In this document: positions 13,907-27,886 of the stretch, piece by piece | Numbering within the stretch: position 1 is the first letter of the stretch | Layout: each line of letters opens with the position of its first letter | Source of the DNA: a virus | Strand: one strand, 5' to 3' | DNA: 33,618 nt | IMG/VR virus record: IMGVR_UViG_3300027734_000198 | Location: 1 to 33,618 of that record | Made by a program: the position numbers and the translations under genes | Notes under the pieces: model-generated | Databases searched by the model: none | Told to the model about the DNA's origin: nothing | The model's input: the letters and a program-made list of their open reading frames with translations, nothing else

Positions 13907-16387
13907 ATGCCACGTTTATCCAAAATTGGTGCTGCTGCACTAGCCGCCTTTGGGTGGACAGGACTGCAATCGGTTACTGCTAGTTACCTTGTAGTGGCTG
14001 GTGGAGGTGGCGGTGGTCATACATTTGGCGGCGGTGGTGGCGCTGGCGGATTACTATCAGGCACAACAGTTTTAACTCCAACTTTGTCCTACACCATTAC
14101 TGTAGGCGCTGGCGGTACGGCAGTAACAAGCAGTAGAGGAAATAATGGTAGTGATTCTGTTTTTAACAGCATTACAGCCACTGGAGGCGGTGGCGGTGGT
14201 GATAGTACAAGCACAACTGGTAAATCAGGCGGTTCAGGCGGTGGGGGTGCATATTATTTAGGTGCTGGTGGAAGCGGAACTGTCGGTCAAGGTAACAGTG
14301 GTGGCGCTAACCAAGGTACTAACGGTGTCGGTGGCGGCGGTGGTGGTGCTGGTGCGGTTGGTGCAAGCACAGGTACACCCGGCTCCGCAGGTGCAGGCGG
14401 TATTGGTTCAACATCTTCTATAACTGGAACATCTACTTACTATGCTGGCGGTGGTGGTGGTAGTGGAAATACTGGGTCAGTAGCCGCTGGTGGTCTTGGT
14501 GGAGGCGGTGCAGGTGGTATTAATGCGGCGGGAACTGCTGGAACTGCTAATACTGGTGGCGGTGGCGGCGGTGGCACTACTGGTGGCGCACAAGGCGGCT
14601 CAGGTGTCGTAATCATTTCATACACAAGCGCAACACAATTATTTGGTGGTGGAACTGTTACCCAATCAGGCGGTAACTTCATTCACACATTCACATCTTC
14701 TGGCGCACTTAGCCCTTTGTCATCTATAACAGCAAGTTACTTGGTAGTGGCTGGCGGTGGCGGTGGTGGTCGTTCAGAAAACTCAGCCAGCGGTGATGGC
14801 GGCGGTGGCGGTGGCGCTGGCGGCTATCGCACAGCCACAGCAATAATTGATTCCAACTCAATTTATACAGTTACTGTTGGCGGTGGTGGTGCTGGGTCAA
14901 CTTCTGTTGCCGCAAAAGGCGTTAACGGTTCTGATTCTGCTTTTTTTGCTGTCACTTCAGCTGGTGGCGGTGGTGGCGGCTCAGACAACGCCAATACAAA
15001 TATCAACAATGGTGCTGATGGTGGTTCTGGCGGCGGTGCAGCTAGTTTTTTCCAAACCGCAACAACTGGAGGTGCGTCAAGCCCTGTTACCTCTCCAGTT
15101 CAAGGTTTTGCTGGTGGCAGTCTTGCCGCCCCTGCAAGTCCATCGGGTGCAAGAGCTGGTGCTGGTGGCGGTGGTTCTTCACAAGCGGGAAATACCAAAA
15201 ACGCAAACATTGGCGGTGCGGGCGGTAACGGTACTGCTAATAGTATTTCTGGTTCATCAATTACTTACGCTGGCGGTGGTGGCGGTGGTGGTGGTGGCGA
15301 CAATGCTCAAGCGGGGGGCGCTGGAGGAACAGGTGGCGGTGGCGCTGGCGGCACAATAAATACCAATGGAACTGCGGGTACTGTCAATTTGGGTGGTGGT
15401 GGTGGCGGTGGTGGCCCGTCATCAGGAACGGGCGGTGCAGGCGGTTCAGGCGTAGTCATCATCTCTTACGCTGGCTCACAAGCATTTACTGGCGGCACAG
15501 TCACATCTTCTGGTGGCAACACTATTCACACATTTACTTCTAGCGGGTCTTTAACTGGTGGATTTGTTGAATATTTAGTTGTTGCTGGTGGTGGTGGTGG
15601 CGGTGGCAATGGCGGTGGCGGTGGCGGTGCTGGTGGTTTTAGAACAGGCACTACTACTTTAATAAAAGGCACTTCCTACACAGTCACAATAGGTGGAGGA
15701 GGCACTGCTGGGACGGGAGTTCCGGGAACTAATGGCGCAAAAGGTTCTGATTCAGTATTTAGCACCATTACATCTACTGGCGGTGGTTACGGCGCACAGA
15801 TTGCATTCCAAGGCGGCTCTGGTGGTAGCGGCGGCGGGTCTGGTAAAGACTCTAACGTATCTGGTGGTTCGGGTAATACTCCAAGCACTAGCCCATCTCA
15901 AGGAAATAACGGAGGTTCTGTACCTGGAAGCGGTAATATTGGCGCATCTGGCGGTGGTGGTGCTAGTGCAGTTGGCGCTAATGGAGGCGGCACTCCCGGT
16001 GCTGAAGTTGGTGGAAATGGCGGCGCTGGCACGGCAAGCAGCATAACTGGAAGTAGCGTCACCTATGCTGGAGGTGGTGGTGGAGCAGTCAATACTACTG
16101 GTTTGTCAACGCCCGGGCTTGGTGGTGCAGGCGGTGGTGGCAATGCTTCTGTTAATGGCACTTCTGCTGGCTCCGCAGGCACAGCCAATAGGGGTGGCGG
16201 TGGTGGCGGTGGTGATTATGCTTCTCTAGGCACGGCTCAAGCAGGCGGCGCTGGTGGTTCTGGCGTAGTCATTCTTTCCATTCCAACAGTCAACTACTCA
16301 GGCACAACCACAGGCTCACCCACAGTCACAACCAGCGGAACAAGAACAATTCTGACCTATAACAGTTCAGGCTCATACACGGCATAA
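13907..16387 (+). CDS. Three-module glycine-rich adhesin/tail protein
   Basis: An 826-residue protein. A short N-terminal helix (SKIGAAALAAFGWTG) is followed by three tandem copies, about 250-280 residues each, of a module that opens with YLVVAGGGGGG, runs through poly-glycine blocks broken by SITGSS.TYAGGGGG segments, and closes with GGSGVVIISY then a beta-hairpin like GGNTIHTFTSSGSL. The extreme C-terminus is VTTSGTRTILTYNSSGSYTA. Related glycine-rich domains in phage adhesins form packed polyglycine-II helices with variable receptor loops at the tip. Its place directly after a fibre gene supports receptor binding. The many overlapping open frames here come from the GGN-rich base composition. 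Confidence 0.82.
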   Translation: MPRLSKIGAAALAAFGWTGLQSVTASYLVVAGGGGGGHTFGGGGGAGGLLSGTTVLTPTLSYTITVGAGGTAVTSSRGNNGSDSVFNSITATGGGGGGDSTSTTGKSGGSGGGGAYYLGAGGSGTVGQGNSGGANQGTNGVGGGGGGAGAVGASTGTPGSAGAGGIGSTSSITGTSTYYAGGGGGSGNTGSVAAGGLGGGGAGGINAAGTAGTANTGGGGGGGTTGGAQGGSGVVIISYTSATQLFGGGTVTQSGGNFIHTFTSSGALSPLSSITASYLVVAGGGGGGRSENSASGDGGGGGGAGGYRTATAIIDSNSIYTVTVGGGGAGSTSVAAKGVNGSDSAFFAVTSAGGGGGGSDNANTNINNGADGGSGGGAASFFQTATTGGASSPVTSPVQGFAGGSLAAPASPSGARAGAGGGGSSQAGNTKNANIGGAGGNGTANSISGSSITYAGGGGGGGGGDNAQAGGAGGTGGGGAGGTINTNGTAGTVNLGGGGGGGGPSSGTGGAGGSGVVIISYAGSQAFTGGTVTSSGGNTIHTFTSSGSLTGGFVEYLVVAGGGGGGGNGGGGGGAGGFRTGTTTLIKGTSYTVTIGGGGTAGTGVPGTNGAKGSDSVFSTITSTGGGYGAQIAFQGGSGGSGGGSGKDSNVSGGSGNTPSTSPSQGNNGGSVPGSGNIGASGGGGASAVGANGGGTPGAEVGGNGGAGTASSITGSSVTYAGGGGGAVNTTGLSTPGLGGAGGGGNASVNGTSAGSAGTANRGGGGGGGDYASLGTAQAGGAGGSGVVILSIPTVNYSGTTTGSPTVTTSGTRTILTYNSSGSYTA
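13979..16387 (+). repeat. Three tandem coding modules of the glycine-rich adhesin
   Basis: Modules begin at 13979, 14732 and 15569, each with a codon run for (A/E)(S/Y)..LVVAGGGGGG. They are 753, 837 and 819 bases long, and the closing GGSGVVI and HTFTSSG blocks recur at matching places. Synonymous codons and loop lengths differ among copies, so the duplication is not recent or has diverged under selection. Confidence 0.8.
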
Positions 16388-20373: not shown

Positions 20374-20584
20374 CTCTTGCTCCTGTATTTGTCTTTTCCT
20401 CCAAGTCATAACAGTTTGCCCATCCTGTCCATCCACCATCTGCCAAAGGTATGGTGTCTAACTTAATTTTAAAATTTTCACCATCCTCAAACAAACTGCC
20501 AATGGTCTGGTAGCGTTTCTTTTCTTGACCGTCTTTGTTGGTGTATGTGCCGGTAATGACAACGATGTTTTTGATTTTTCTCAT
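20357..20584 (-). CDS. Small protein with SSB-like acidic C-terminal tip
   Basis: Seventy-five residues. The body is a short beta-rich domain (IKNIVVITGTYTNKDGQEKK, RYQTIGSLFEDGENFKIKLD, TIPLADGGWTGWANCYDLEE), and the last residues are DDIPF, the acidic tip by which bacterial SSB recruits partner proteins. It lies between the YqaJ exonuclease and the wHTH gene, so a role as a mini single-strand binding or partner-recruiting protein in recombination is likely. It is less than half the length of bacterial SSB and has no clear full OB fold. Confidence 0.68.
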   Translation of the reverse strand: MRKIKNIVVITGTYTNKDGQEKKRYQTIGSLFEDGENFKIKLDTIPLADGGWTGWANCYDLEEKTNTGARDDIPF

Positions 20585-21186
20585 GGCAAACTTTCTAATT
20601 GTTGGATTTTTAGGTCTACATCACCCAAGAACTGGATGACTGAATTCTCAAGCAAATTAACCATTTCGGGGTCATAGTTGATGCGCTTGATGAATAGCTG
20701 ATGTCTTTCCGGAAGACGTGGATCGAATGAAACAAAGTCTGCCCAAGGCGTATCGGTGCAAGCCATTTGCCACATCATTTGCGTGATGTACTTTTCTGGA
20801 ATTTTGCGATCTAGCAAAGTTTGCAGATGCGTACTAGTATTTGGGCATTTCAGTTCAACGATACCCTCATTAGCCAGGCCATCAGGAGAAGCGCCAGCCA
20901 TTGCAATGCGGGGATGGTTAACAAACCCCACCTCAGTAACCAACAAATCCATCCTTGCCTCATAAGCCGCCCGAGCGTAAGGCTCGGTGTCTGTACCCCA
21001 CTGCATGGCTGAATTGCTGTAAGACTCGGCAGGCTTGCCGGTCATGCGCTCACAAACCAATTGGGCAAGGTAGTTCTCGCGGCTGGCGCTTGGCCCTGAC
21101 TTGGTCTTGGCAATGATGTCAGCCACACGGCTTGCGGTGACCTTGCCGCATCTGGCGGCAAACCATTCTTCTGTGCGCTGTTCCAT
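20581..21186 (-). CDS. YqaJ/lambda-Exo family 5'-3' exonuclease
   Basis: A 201-residue PD-(D/E)XK nuclease. The start EQRTEEWFAARCGKVTASRV is the classic YqaJ opening. E68 lies in WGTDTEPYARAAYE, D102 in AGASPDGL, the E-x-K pair is E111/K113 in VELKCP, and a helical Gln motif follows at YITQMMWQM. These residues bind metal and cut DNA. The enzyme would resect double-stranded ends for the ERF annealing protein encoded just upstream in the same operon; their genes meet at a one-base overlap. Length is normal. Together they form a two-component phage recombinase. Confidence 0.9.
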   Translation of the reverse strand: MEQRTEEWFAARCGKVTASRVADIIAKTKSGPSASRENYLAQLVCERMTGKPAESYSNSAMQWGTDTEPYARAAYEARMDLLVTEVGFVNHPRIAMAGASPDGLANEGIVELKCPNTSTHLQTLLDRKIPEKYITQMMWQMACTDTPWADFVSFDPRLPERHQLFIKRINYDPEMVNLLENSVIQFLGDVDLKIQQLESLP

Positions 21187-22760: not shown

Positions 22761-23522
22761 ATGCACTACTACCAATTCAATATTGGTGACTATCTCAGTC
22801 ACACAAAGCATCTTGATTTAATGGAAGATTTGGCTTATCGCCGACTTCTTGATCTTTACTATTTACATGAACGACCGTTGAACAGCGGTATAGCGTCTGT
22901 TGCACGGCAGATCGGTATGCGTGACCAAGAGACAGAGGTCAAAACTGTGCTTGAGGAGTTTTTTGACTTATCCGATGATGGGTGGATAAACCAACGAGCA
23001 GACAAAGAAATTAAGCATTTCCACAGCAAAATTGATCAGGCATCAAGGGCTGGTAAGGCATCTGCTGAACGGAGGATGAGCGCACGTTCAACGGACGTTC
23101 AACTAACCAATAACCAAGAACCAATAACCAATAACCAATTAAAACCCTCTTTATGTCCACCTGACGGTGAACTTGAATCAGCAAAAAAGTTACCTGGCTG
23201 TGACCACAAGGCAGTCATTGAGCTGTACCACCAGAATCTGCCCACAATGCGGCGAGTGGAGGTTTGGAACGAAACCCGAGCTGGTTACCTACGGCAACGA
23301 TGGCGGGAGGTGGCGGCAGAGCTGGCGCAAGCGCAAGACATCACCGCATCTGATGTGCTTAACTGGTGGAGTGAGTTTTTCCAATCTGTTGGCAAATCCA
23401 GATTTTTGACCGGTAGGGTTAACAGCAAGGACGGTCGGGCATTTGTTGCCGACTTGGAATGGATACTAAAACCAAGCAATTTTGCAAAAATCGTAGAGGG
23501 GAAATATCATGGCAATAACTAA
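22761..23522 (+). CDS. DUF1376 replication protein (replisome organizer-like)
   Basis: A 253-residue protein. Residues 1 to about 95 are the DUF1376 domain: YYQFNIGDYLSHTKHLDLME, DLAYRRLLDLYYLHERPL and the FFDLSDDGWINQRADKEI end, a winged-helix-like fold. A linker (about 100-135) is coded by tandem DNA repeats (QLTNNQEPITNNQL). The C-terminal part, with YLRQRWREVAAELAQ, FLTGRVNSKDGRAFVADLEW and ILKPSNFAKIVEGKYHGNN, matches the conserved end of phage replisome organizers that load helicase. It is the third element of the rightward early unit, as lambda O is, and the origin may lie within the gene. Confidence 0.82.
   Translation: MHYYQFNIGDYLSHTKHLDLMEDLAYRRLLDLYYLHERPLNSGIASVARQIGMRDQETEVKTVLEEFFDLSDDGWINQRADKEIKHFHSKIDQASRAGKASAERRMSARSTDVQLTNNQEPITNNQLKPSLCPPDGELESAKKLPGCDHKAVIELYHQNLPTMRRVEVWNETRAGYLRQRWREVAAELAQAQDITASDVLNWWSEFFQSVGKSRFLTGRVNSKDGRAFVADLEWILKPSNFAKIVEGKYHGNN
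23105..23139 (+). repeat. Five tandem heptamers inside the replication gene
   Basis: Five back-to-back copies of AACCAAT fill 23105-23139; the second reads AACCAAG and the other four are identical. A 7-base period in a coding frame repeats each 21 bases, which explains the peptide TNNQEPI then TNNQ. An AT-rich stretch follows. The pattern suits iterons that bind the initiator within its own gene, as in lambda O. Confidence 0.8.
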
Positions 23523-23996: not shown

Positions 23997-24264
23997 TGCA
24001 AATCAAGAGGCGGTGGTCACGGCGCTACGAACGGCTGGCGCTACGGTGCAGTCTTTGGCTGGTGTTGGAAAGGGTGTACCTGATTTGCTGGTGGGCTATA
24101 AAGGCCAAACCCTGCTCATGGAAGTTAAAGACGGCTTTAAAGCGCCGTCTGCGCGACTTTTGACTGAAGACCAGCTACGGTGGCATCATAACTGGTTAGG
24201 GGGCGCATTGGCGGTTGTAGACAGCCCTGATGCGGCTTTACGCATGATTGGGGTGATCAAGTGA
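23977..24264 (+). CDS. VRR-NUC domain nuclease
   Basis: A 95-residue stand-alone VRR-NUC protein of the PD-(D/E)XK fold. After a helix (DANQEAVVTALRTAGATVQS) comes GKGVPDLLVG with Asp36, then TLLMEVKDG with Glu49 and Lys51, and a Gln-containing helix LTEDQLRWHHNW. These are the metal and catalytic residues. Stand-alone phage VRR-NUC proteins are thought to cut branched DNA such as Holliday junctions. GGAGG lies before the ATG. Its end overlaps the next GTG start (GTGA). It probably resolves recombination or replication intermediates before packaging. Confidence 0.88.
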   Translation: MRAAKIDANQEAVVTALRTAGATVQSLAGVGKGVPDLLVGYKGQTLLMEVKDGFKAPSARLLTEDQLRWHHNWLGGALAVVDSPDAALRMIGVIK

Positions 24265-24986
24265 GAATTGTTTGTTGGTTTAGTTGCGGGGCGGCAAGCG
24301 CAGTAGCCACAAAATTGGCAATTGCTGAAAATAATGGCAAATTACCTTTAATCATTGCTTACACAGAAGTGGCAGAGGAACATCTTGACAACAAGCGGTT
24401 TTTGAAAGATTGTGAAATTTGGTTTGGTCAAGAAATAATAATTTTGAGAAATGATTTCTATCAGGGGTCAATTTACAAGGTGTTTGAAAAAAACTACATT
24501 CGCACACCTAAAGGCGCACCATGCACTAGAGCATTAAAAAAACAGGTTCGCCAAAGGTTTGAGGAAAAAACTGACAGACAAGTGTTTGGTTATACGGCAG
24601 AAGAACAGGCGCGGCTTGATAGGTTTATTGATGCCAACAATGATGTAAATATTTGGACTCCTTTAATTGACAAAGGGCTTTCCAAAGAAGATTGTTTGGC
24701 TATGCTTAAAAACGCCAATATTGAATTGCCTGCAATGTATCGCCTTGGATATAACAACAACAATTGCATTGGGTGTGTCAAAGGCGGCATGGGGTATTGG
24801 AACAAAATTAAGGTAGATTTTCCTGACCACTTTGATCGCATGGCAAAACTTGAACGATTTAAAAAGCAAACGGTATTTAAAGACCGTTATTTGGATGAAT
24901 TAAAACCTACAGACGGGCATTATCCAAGTGAGCAGAACATTGAATGTTCTATTTTTTGCCAAATGGCTGAACAGGATTACAAGTGA
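24261..24986 (+). CDS. PAPS reductase-family (PP-loop) protein
   Basis: A 241-residue adenine-nucleotide alpha-hydrolase protein with a PAPS-reductase-type core. The PP-loop is SCGAAS (residues 8-13), TEVAEEHLDNKRFLKDCE follows, and GAPCTRALKKQVRQRFEE includes Cys88. Further cysteines at 169 and 172 (NCIGCVKGG) and at 229 and 233 (IECSIFC) could bind an iron-sulfur cluster with Cys88. Such proteins occur in many phages; roles proposed include sulfur chemistry on DNA or RNA or nucleotide activation. A true assimilatory PAPS reductase is unlikely, since the usual C-terminal ECG-H motif is absent. Start is GTG in a GTGA overlap. Confidence 0.78.
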   Translation: MRIVCWFSCGAASAVATKLAIAENNGKLPLIIAYTEVAEEHLDNKRFLKDCEIWFGQEIIILRNDFYQGSIYKVFEKNYIRTPKGAPCTRALKKQVRQRFEEKTDRQVFGYTAEEQARLDRFIDANNDVNIWTPLIDKGLSKEDCLAMLKNANIELPAMYRLGYNNNNCIGCVKGGMGYWNKIKVDFPDHFDRMAKLERFKKQTVFKDRYLDELKPTDGHYPSEQNIECSIFCQMAEQDYK

Positions 24987-26755: not shown

Positions 26756-27886
26756 ATGAAAATCACCCAAAAAAAGGTTGACAGCCTAATACCTTATATC
26801 AACAACAGCCGCACCCACAGCGATGAGCAAGTGGCACAAATAGCGGCAAGCATTAAAGAGTTTGGCTGGACTAACCCAATATTGGTAGATGGCGACAACA
26901 GCATCATTGCCGGCCACGGCAGGCTAATGGCGGCAAGGAAGCTGGGCTACAAGGAAGTACCCACCATTGAGCTGTCAGACTTAACAGAAACCCAAAAAAA
27001 AGCCTACATCATTGCCGACAACCGCCTGGCGCTTAACGCTGGCTGGGACAACGAGCTGCTAACCATTGAGCTTAACGATTTGCTGGCAGATGGCTTTGCA
27101 TTGGAATTGCTGGGCTTTGACCCTAAAGAGCTAGACGCATTGCTTGAGCCAGAAGTGGTTGAGGGCTTAACAGACGAGGATGCTGTTCCTGATGTACCTG
27201 ATGAGCCAACAACCAAACGCGGGGACATATATCAACTTGGTTATCACCGATTGATGTGTGGTAATTCAACATTTATAGATGATGTTGAAAAGTTAATGCA
27301 GGGTACATATCCTGATCTGATACACACAGACCCACCGTATGGAATGAATGCTGTTAGCAAATCGTCTGTGCTTAAAAAGAATTACAAAATTGATATTCTT
27401 GGTGATGATTCGCCAGACGTGGCAAAAGACGCATTCAATTTGATTTATGGGTTATATCCAGAAGCCAAGCATATTTGGTGGGGGGCAAACTATTATTGTT
27501 CCGCATTGCCCGACAGCGAATGCTGGCTTGTTTGGGACAAGGACAATGGTCAATCCGATCAAACCGATTGCGAGTTGGCATGGGCAAATTTTAGAAGTGT
27601 TGTGCGCCAATTTACCAAATCATCAGAAAAAAAGAATCGCGTACACCCAACACAAAAGCCCGTGGCATTGATGGAATGGATTATTCGCCGTTTCAAATTA
27701 TCATCTGACACCATTGCTGATTATTTTGGCGGGTCTGGAAGCACATTGATTGCTGCTGAAAAGCACGGGATCAAAGCATTTGTGATGGAATTTGACCCAA
27801 AATTCTGCGATGTGATTGTTAAACGGTGGGAAGACTTTACAGGCAAAAAAGCCGTATTGTTGTTAGAATCCACCGTAACAGCTTAA
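26756..27886 (+). CDS. ParB-like plus N6-adenine/N4-cytosine DNA methyltransferase
   Basis: A 376-residue fusion. Residues 1 to about 95 form a ParB/Srx-like domain (NPILVDGDNSIIAGHGRLMA, residues 40-59, then AARKLGY and IIADNRLALNAGWDNEL). Residues about 155-376 are a beta-class amino-methyltransferase, with catalytic DPPY at 192-195, then HPTQKP (297-302) and SAM motif DYFGGSGST (322-330). The order, DPPY before FGGSG, defines the class. It methylates phage DNA, probably to evade host restriction; no matching nuclease is nearby. The ribosome site is weak. The region between the motifs is short, so target specificity may be relaxed. Confidence 0.88.
   Translation: MKITQKKVDSLIPYINNSRTHSDEQVAQIAASIKEFGWTNPILVDGDNSIIAGHGRLMAARKLGYKEVPTIELSDLTETQKKAYIIADNRLALNAGWDNELLTIELNDLLADGFALELLGFDPKELDALLEPEVVEGLTDEDAVPDVPDEPTTKRGDIYQLGYHRLMCGNSTFIDDVEKLMQGTYPDLIHTDPPYGMNAVSKSSVLKKNYKIDILGDDSPDVAKDAFNLIYGLYPEAKHIWWGANYYCSALPDSECWLVWDKDNGQSDQTDCELAWANFRSVVRQFTKSSEKKNRVHPTQKPVALMEWIIRRFKLSSDTIADYFGGSGSTLIAAEKHGIKAFVMEFDPKFCDVIVKRWEDFTGKKAVLLLESTVTA

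Follow-up and report, generated by a model that had tools for sequence, protein, structure and literature searches.

The DNA analysed here (the window, a stretch of 33,618 nucleotides (nt) taken as a whole) is the IMG/VR virus record IMGVR_UViG_3300027734_000198, and it carries a predicted replication initiator gene of the DUF1376 (YdaU) type with tandem repeats in its middle. According to the domain matches, the gene is composed of three parts, i.e., an N-terminal DUF1376 domain, a linker with the repeats and an O-like C-terminal domain. PF07120 matched residues 2-84 of the protein (E 1.2e-24, 86.9 bits versus a curated cut-off of 30.1), which places it in the DUF1376/YdaU family. The N-terminal half was matched by PHROG profiles annotated as 'primosomal proteins' and residues 93-250 by phrog_345, 'replication initiation O-like' (E 5.2e-18); the PHROG 'DnaD-like helicase loader' also matched the protein (E 1.2e-14). 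A search of PDB sequences with the DUF1376 family alignment gave no meaningful match. The original prediction, an earlier note on this DNA, described tandem heptamers in the linker of a replication gene, and they are present, with the correction that the second of the five head-to-tail units is AACCAAG. Tandem Repeats Finder placed the array at 23104-23139 (period 7, 5.1 copies, 93% matches, score 65), and no other period-7 array was found by a lag scan across the 33.6-kb window. In frame the array reads LTNNQEPITNNQLK, and the lone G of AACCAAG stands where a T would give an in-frame TAA stop. The AT-richness that had been placed beside the heptamers is real, but the array itself forms the AT-rich part (68% AT in 23101-23150).

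Features of the predicted initiator gene and its repeats in the window
Feature	Position	Strand	Remarks
DUF1376 (YdaU-type) replication initiator gene, predicted	22761-23522	+	253 residues; PF07120 and PHROG matches
Candidate upstream iteron cluster in the DUF1376-coding region	22872-22904	+	GTTGAAC at 22877 and degenerate 11-bp copies; lag-22 p=0.011 versus codon null
Candidate linker iteron cluster, 11-bp repeats	23070-23103	+	strong GTTCAAC at 23086 and 23097; one degenerate copy 5'
Heptamer array, candidate unwinding or helicase-loading strip	23105-23139	+	four AACCAAT and one AACCAAG
Small stem-loop CACC-tgac-GGTG, 3' of the array	23158-23169	+	weak in the window; position read from sequence

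A 21-base pattern of three heptamers, scanned over IMG/VR, occurred in at least 120 stretches. Among the matches listed, the window included, 106 of the 115 open frames running through the arrays were DUF1376 by Pfam and 111 of the 115 by a profile built in this study; the four without DUF1376 by the latter were L038 and L091, which look like chance matches, L046, a fragment beginning at the array, and L085, which may encode another initiator. This first sample was picked by its DNA, and therefore a second one was drawn by protein only, via the N-terminal domain, together with whole-genome searches and named phages, and was dereplicated. In the protein-retrieved genes, 37 of 38 occurrences of the peptide NQEP used AACCAAGAACCA, one of 32 possible spellings, and a single spelling was used for NQEPIT in 15 of 15 (384 possible), for NHKP in 29 of 29 and for PTPT in 9 of 9 (256 possible). 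Identical dipeptides elsewhere in those genes had mixed codons. Periodicity was compared with a codon null in which the peptide is fixed and codons are drawn from the gene's own usage, independently of each other; against it the window gene was significant at lag 14 (p=0.001) and lag 7 (p=0.002). The main sample comprised 180 dereplicated DUF1376 genes, of which about 2 per lag are expected at the threshold of p<=0.01. In the linker this threshold was reached by 112 genes at lag 7, 105 at lag 14, 61 at lag 11 and 36 at lag 22, and in the DUF1376-coding region by 19 at lag 11, 11 at lag 22, 1 at lag 7 and 0 at lag 14; the C-terminal control region had at most 2 genes at any lag. Among the 95 genes retrieved by protein and not by heptamer, 59 had the signal at lag 7 or 14 and 41 at lag 11 or 22. 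Applied to phage lambda O as the positive control, the test gave a signal in the middle region only, at lags 20, 23 and 24 (p 0.001-0.004), which are the spacings of lambda's annotated iterons. Our results demonstrate that the repeats are selected as DNA within the initiator gene, between its two domains and as in lambda, because of the one-way spelling, the excess over the codon null, and the C-terminal and lambda controls.

Selection on the linker peptide, i.e., on flexible NQEPITN heptads with the DNA pattern as a by-product, would be in keeping with a translated array in a low-complexity linker with a 7-residue period, but it would have to yield one spelling out of the 32 to 384 possible for NQEP, NHKP, NQEPIT and PTPT, 7-bp periodicity above nulls that keep the peptide, and A/C-rich tandem DNA in other clades with very different peptides (NQNQ, PTPT, KQET). 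We regard this explanation as extremely unlikely. The reading frame was dropped as a means of telling selection on DNA from selection on peptide, because 7 leaves a remainder of 1 on division by 3 and the same cyclic heptapeptide results in every frame. The spelling counts and the codon null thus agree with the original prediction that the DNA repeat rather than the peptide is the conserved unit, and no relative was found in which the peptide was kept and the DNA repeat lost. A conserved number of heptamers had also been expected and did not hold, with 3 to 8 copies among the relatives.

The lag-11 signal is new relative to the original prediction and comes from 11-bp repeats that, in the linkers inspected, end directly 5' of the heptamers. 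From 23070 in the window, 16 of 22 positions match at lag 11 (p=0.010 versus the codon null). The unit differs by clade (GTTSAAC, GAACGCAATGC, CCCAGTCGGTT or ACCCASTGGGT, CACGAANCGTG, GGGAGCCTATA, ATGCCGCAGCA and others), and many units are imperfect palindromes, with a modest excess of the mean palindrome score (3.37 versus 2.83 for shuffles). A second cluster is located in the DUF1376-coding region at about nt 105-200 of the open reading frame, with the same unit as in the linker of that gene. Of 168 genes, 50 had more 7-mers in common between their two clusters than the codon null at p<=0.05, and 31 at p<=0.01. The positional profile showed that the gene's own unit was enriched inside the gene only, with no enrichment in the 900 bp upstream or past the gene end. 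Successive GTTNAAC pairs are spaced by 11 bp in 52 of 71 cases and by 22 in 9 of 71, i.e., in phase with the DNA helix as is the rule for iterons. From the start of the last iteron to the first heptamer, the distance is 8 nt in 42 genes, 19 nt in 7 and 30 nt in 6 (8 + 11n); the window has the modal value of 8 nt (23097 to 23105). Its GTTGAAC at 22877 sits 220 nt 5' of the last iteron, and no distance is more frequent among relatives. The two clusters often lie a multiple of 11 nt apart (220, 209), an observation not used as evidence because gene homology alone could produce it. Helical-turn spacing, a unit that varies by clade and the occurrence of one unit in two clusters were found together, and the 11-bp repeats therefore behave like initiator sites.

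The heptamers have different properties. Their consensus in the protein-retrieved genes is A A C(A) C A A(T) T(G/A), almost free of G except at the last position. Over 137 aligned genes the array was a local minimum of duplex stability, below the codon null, and as in lambda an easily melted strip thus adjoins the candidate iterons. Within the array these genes had a deficit of hairpins (t down to -11), and at 10-30 nt 3' of it an excess, with a strong hairpin there in 56 of the 137 relatives versus 13.5 expected; the window-type hairpin in L124 scores 11, which is not above the codon null. Clades without the heptamer often carry 6-bp arrays, such as AACCAG (peptide NQNQ) and CCAACA (PTPT). 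The strip stays near-constant across changing iterons, a pattern to be anticipated if the initiator reads the iterons and unwinding or helicase loading takes place at the strip. The linker of Thalassomonas phage BA3 (L346 1780-2000) has a longer direct duplication, with GCTAACCCAGCGGAAACCGAAAGCAAAGCTAAAAAAA present twice, followed by an AACCAAG array.

The original prediction took the heptamers for the iterons, and if they were bound double-stranded by the initiator, the 11-bp repeats would have some other role. No repeat in the gene is more regular than the heptamers, which are also almost confined to DUF1376 genes, but the heptamer unit is nearly constant while the initiators diverge widely, which is the opposite of initiator sites, and the 7-bp spacing sets successive copies on different faces of the helix. 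The position of the array at the stability minimum and its substitution by 6-bp arrays in other clades also speak against such binding, and the features of initiator sites belong to the 11-bp repeats directly 5'. The heptamers are probably not the iterons, and we consider the assignment unlikely.

Two further explanations concern the repeats as a whole. Short tandem arrays arise by slippage, and a copy number of 3 to 8 would suit functionless simple repeats of this kind, but the unit is common to proteins mostly 30-50% identical to each other, a fixed phase of 8 + 11n nt to the iterons and ordered neighbours are unexpected for neutral repeats, and gain or loss of one heptamer would shift the frame; a neutral origin is highly improbable in our judgement. 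The iterons could instead be an operator through which the initiator regulates its own gene. The candidate binding sites are located in the initiator gene, and initiators often repress their own genes. On the other hand, the unit has no enrichment on the promoter side, which is included in the upstream region profiled, and an operator leaves the stability minimum, the structure-free strip and the hairpin unexplained, so we see very little room for it.

We propose that the locus is a lambda-like origin in the gene of its own initiator, in which clade-specific 11-bp iterons would be bound by DUF1376 and the heptamer array would be the strip for unwinding and helicase loading, and we assign this reading a probability of roughly 0.78. 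The intragenic origin of the original prediction is thereby supported, as a candidate, by DNA-level repeats between the two domains of the gene. Each helical turn of the two clusters would present one 11-bp iteron, often an imperfect palindrome, to a DUF1376 dimer, and looping possibly joins the clusters. The assembled complex would strain the DNA, and the adjacent heptamer array, judged by its stability, would open. Its A/C-rich, nearly G-free strand could then stay single-stranded as the place of helicase loading, because by computation it is unable to pair with itself. The domain matches and the neighbouring genes suggest that the helicase would be loaded at the array by the O-like C-terminal domain together with a loader or helicase, and the hairpin 3' of it may help in some relatives. 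In named phages the DUF1376 gene is followed by a gene for a DnaB-like helicase or a DnaC-like loader.

What was computed directly is selection at the DNA level, the order and phasing of the elements, the turnover of units with matched clusters, the minimum of duplex stability and the excess of hairpins. Several points weigh against the proposed origin. The binding of DUF1376 to the iterons, melting and initiation are predicted from sequence. Thirty-six of the 95 protein-retrieved genes have no significant 7-bp signal, many of them with 6-bp arrays or weak heptamers. The control for 7-mer sharing, N versus C-terminal, came out a little higher than chance would give (13 of 122). The window itself has a weak upstream cluster and a small hairpin, and its two clusters do not share 7-mers significantly (p=0.129). 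Neither a helicase nor a loader was found by Pfam and PHROG profiles among the downstream window genes tested, and the GC skew, which had been expected to mark the origin, has no inflection at 23.1 kb. In the codon null each codon is drawn independently of the others, and the model takes no account of relatedness below 80% identity; therefore the support rests on the clades with differing units and on the C-terminal and lambda controls, not on the raw counts.

The origin of phage lambda lies in gene O, where dimers bind iterons with dyad symmetry and an A+T-rich strip comes next (PMC5043065). Two iterons and the strip are enough for unwinding, and lambda O binds A/T-rich single strands (PMC7466680). 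The candidate resembles it in its location in the initiator gene, in repeats at mid-gene with the iterons before the strip, and in the O-like C-terminal half of the protein. However, lambda has four annotated 18-bp iterons at 20-24 bp spacing in one cluster, whereas here the spacing is 11 bp, with 22 as a multiple, and does not fit the 18-19 bp iterons of the lambda type; a second cluster lies in the region coding for the predicted DNA-binding domain, and the strip is a tandem 7-bp A/C-rich array. The protein also differs from the lambda O type at its N-terminus, since this half is DUF1376 and PHROG primosomal and only residues 93-250 are O-like. The candidate site would work like the lambda origin but departs from it in two defining features, the length and spacing of the iterons and the type of the N-terminal domain.

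The Rac prophage of E. coli is similar in that YdaU is a DUF1376 protein, the best known of its family, and is followed by the ATP-binding protein YdaV. The linker of Rac ydaU has a 23-bp periodicity beyond codons (p=0.001) but, unlike the window gene, no AACCAAT array. Rac carries an active origin, oriJ (PMC3945230), which we predict to lie within ydaU; its exact place was not found in the open literature examined. Residues 173-285 of Rac YdaU (L233 5120-5977) are 85-87% identical to O proteins of other E. coli phages and the match ends there, so that, judged by this comparison, the N-terminal part is swapped.

Initiator-specific, helix-phased repeats beside an A+T-rich unwinding region are likewise found in iteron plasmid origins of the RK2, P1 and F type (PMC5043065). 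The DnaA-trio of bacterial origins, as cited in PMC5043065, is a short tandem motif beside initiator sites by which binding of the initiator to single strands is specified, and the heptamers would likewise be a short tandem motif adjoining such sites. The trio is a 3-nt motif and belongs to the DnaA protein; it serves here as a working analogy only, with no homology implied. Tentatively, and with less confidence than we place in the origin itself, the heptamer could correspond in phages to the DnaA-trio, as a single-strand element recognized by its sequence. Its reader would be the loader or a conserved portion of the DUF1376 initiator, the double-strand iterons would turn over freely, and the two clusters could form a looped two-part origin; we consider this possible but doubtful.

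DUF1376 genes also occur on plasmid-like elements. The Acinetobacter plasmid pSWBY1 (L436 12716-17533) encodes RepM and a DUF1376 protein, with an ATP-binding protein gene behind the DUF1376 gene; it was ruled out as a plasmid replicating by DUF1376 alone because RepM is also present, and it possibly has two replication systems. The circular 60.7-kb Acinetobacter element pANC7919.1 has no typed replicon, and its DUF1376 gene (L437 6001-6918) has lag-7 and lag-11 signals. The element is phage-like, and its case as a DUF1376-only replicon is suggestive only. Elsewhere in the window, a YqaJ-type viral recombination exonuclease (20581-21186, minus strand) belongs to a minus-strand gene group left of the candidate origin, and a phage gene resembling phosphoadenosine phosphosulfate reductase (24261-24986) lies shortly 3' of the initiator gene. 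One gene of 376 residues (26756-27886) fuses a ParB_N-like domain to an N6/N4 DNA methyltransferase, and a long glycine-rich gene (13907-16387; Gly_rich_2, PF21722) has many GGT/GGC repeats.

No description of a DUF1376 origin was found in searches of open full texts. The layout is common to hundreds of phage DUF1376 genes, and it points to the job of this family and to the start of DNA copying. DUF1376 proteins, which are annotated as of unknown function or as 'primosomal' in very many phages and prophages, would gain a specific job, i.e., origin recognition. From sequence alone, the anatomy narrows the predicted origin down to about 100 bp and yields a predicted cognate iteron for each clade, and the pairing of iteron units with DUF1376 sequences across clades would be a natural data set on protein-DNA recognition. 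Two questions also become testable, namely where the Rac origin lies and whether many initiators that differ in their iterons share a single conserved strip, AACCAAT.
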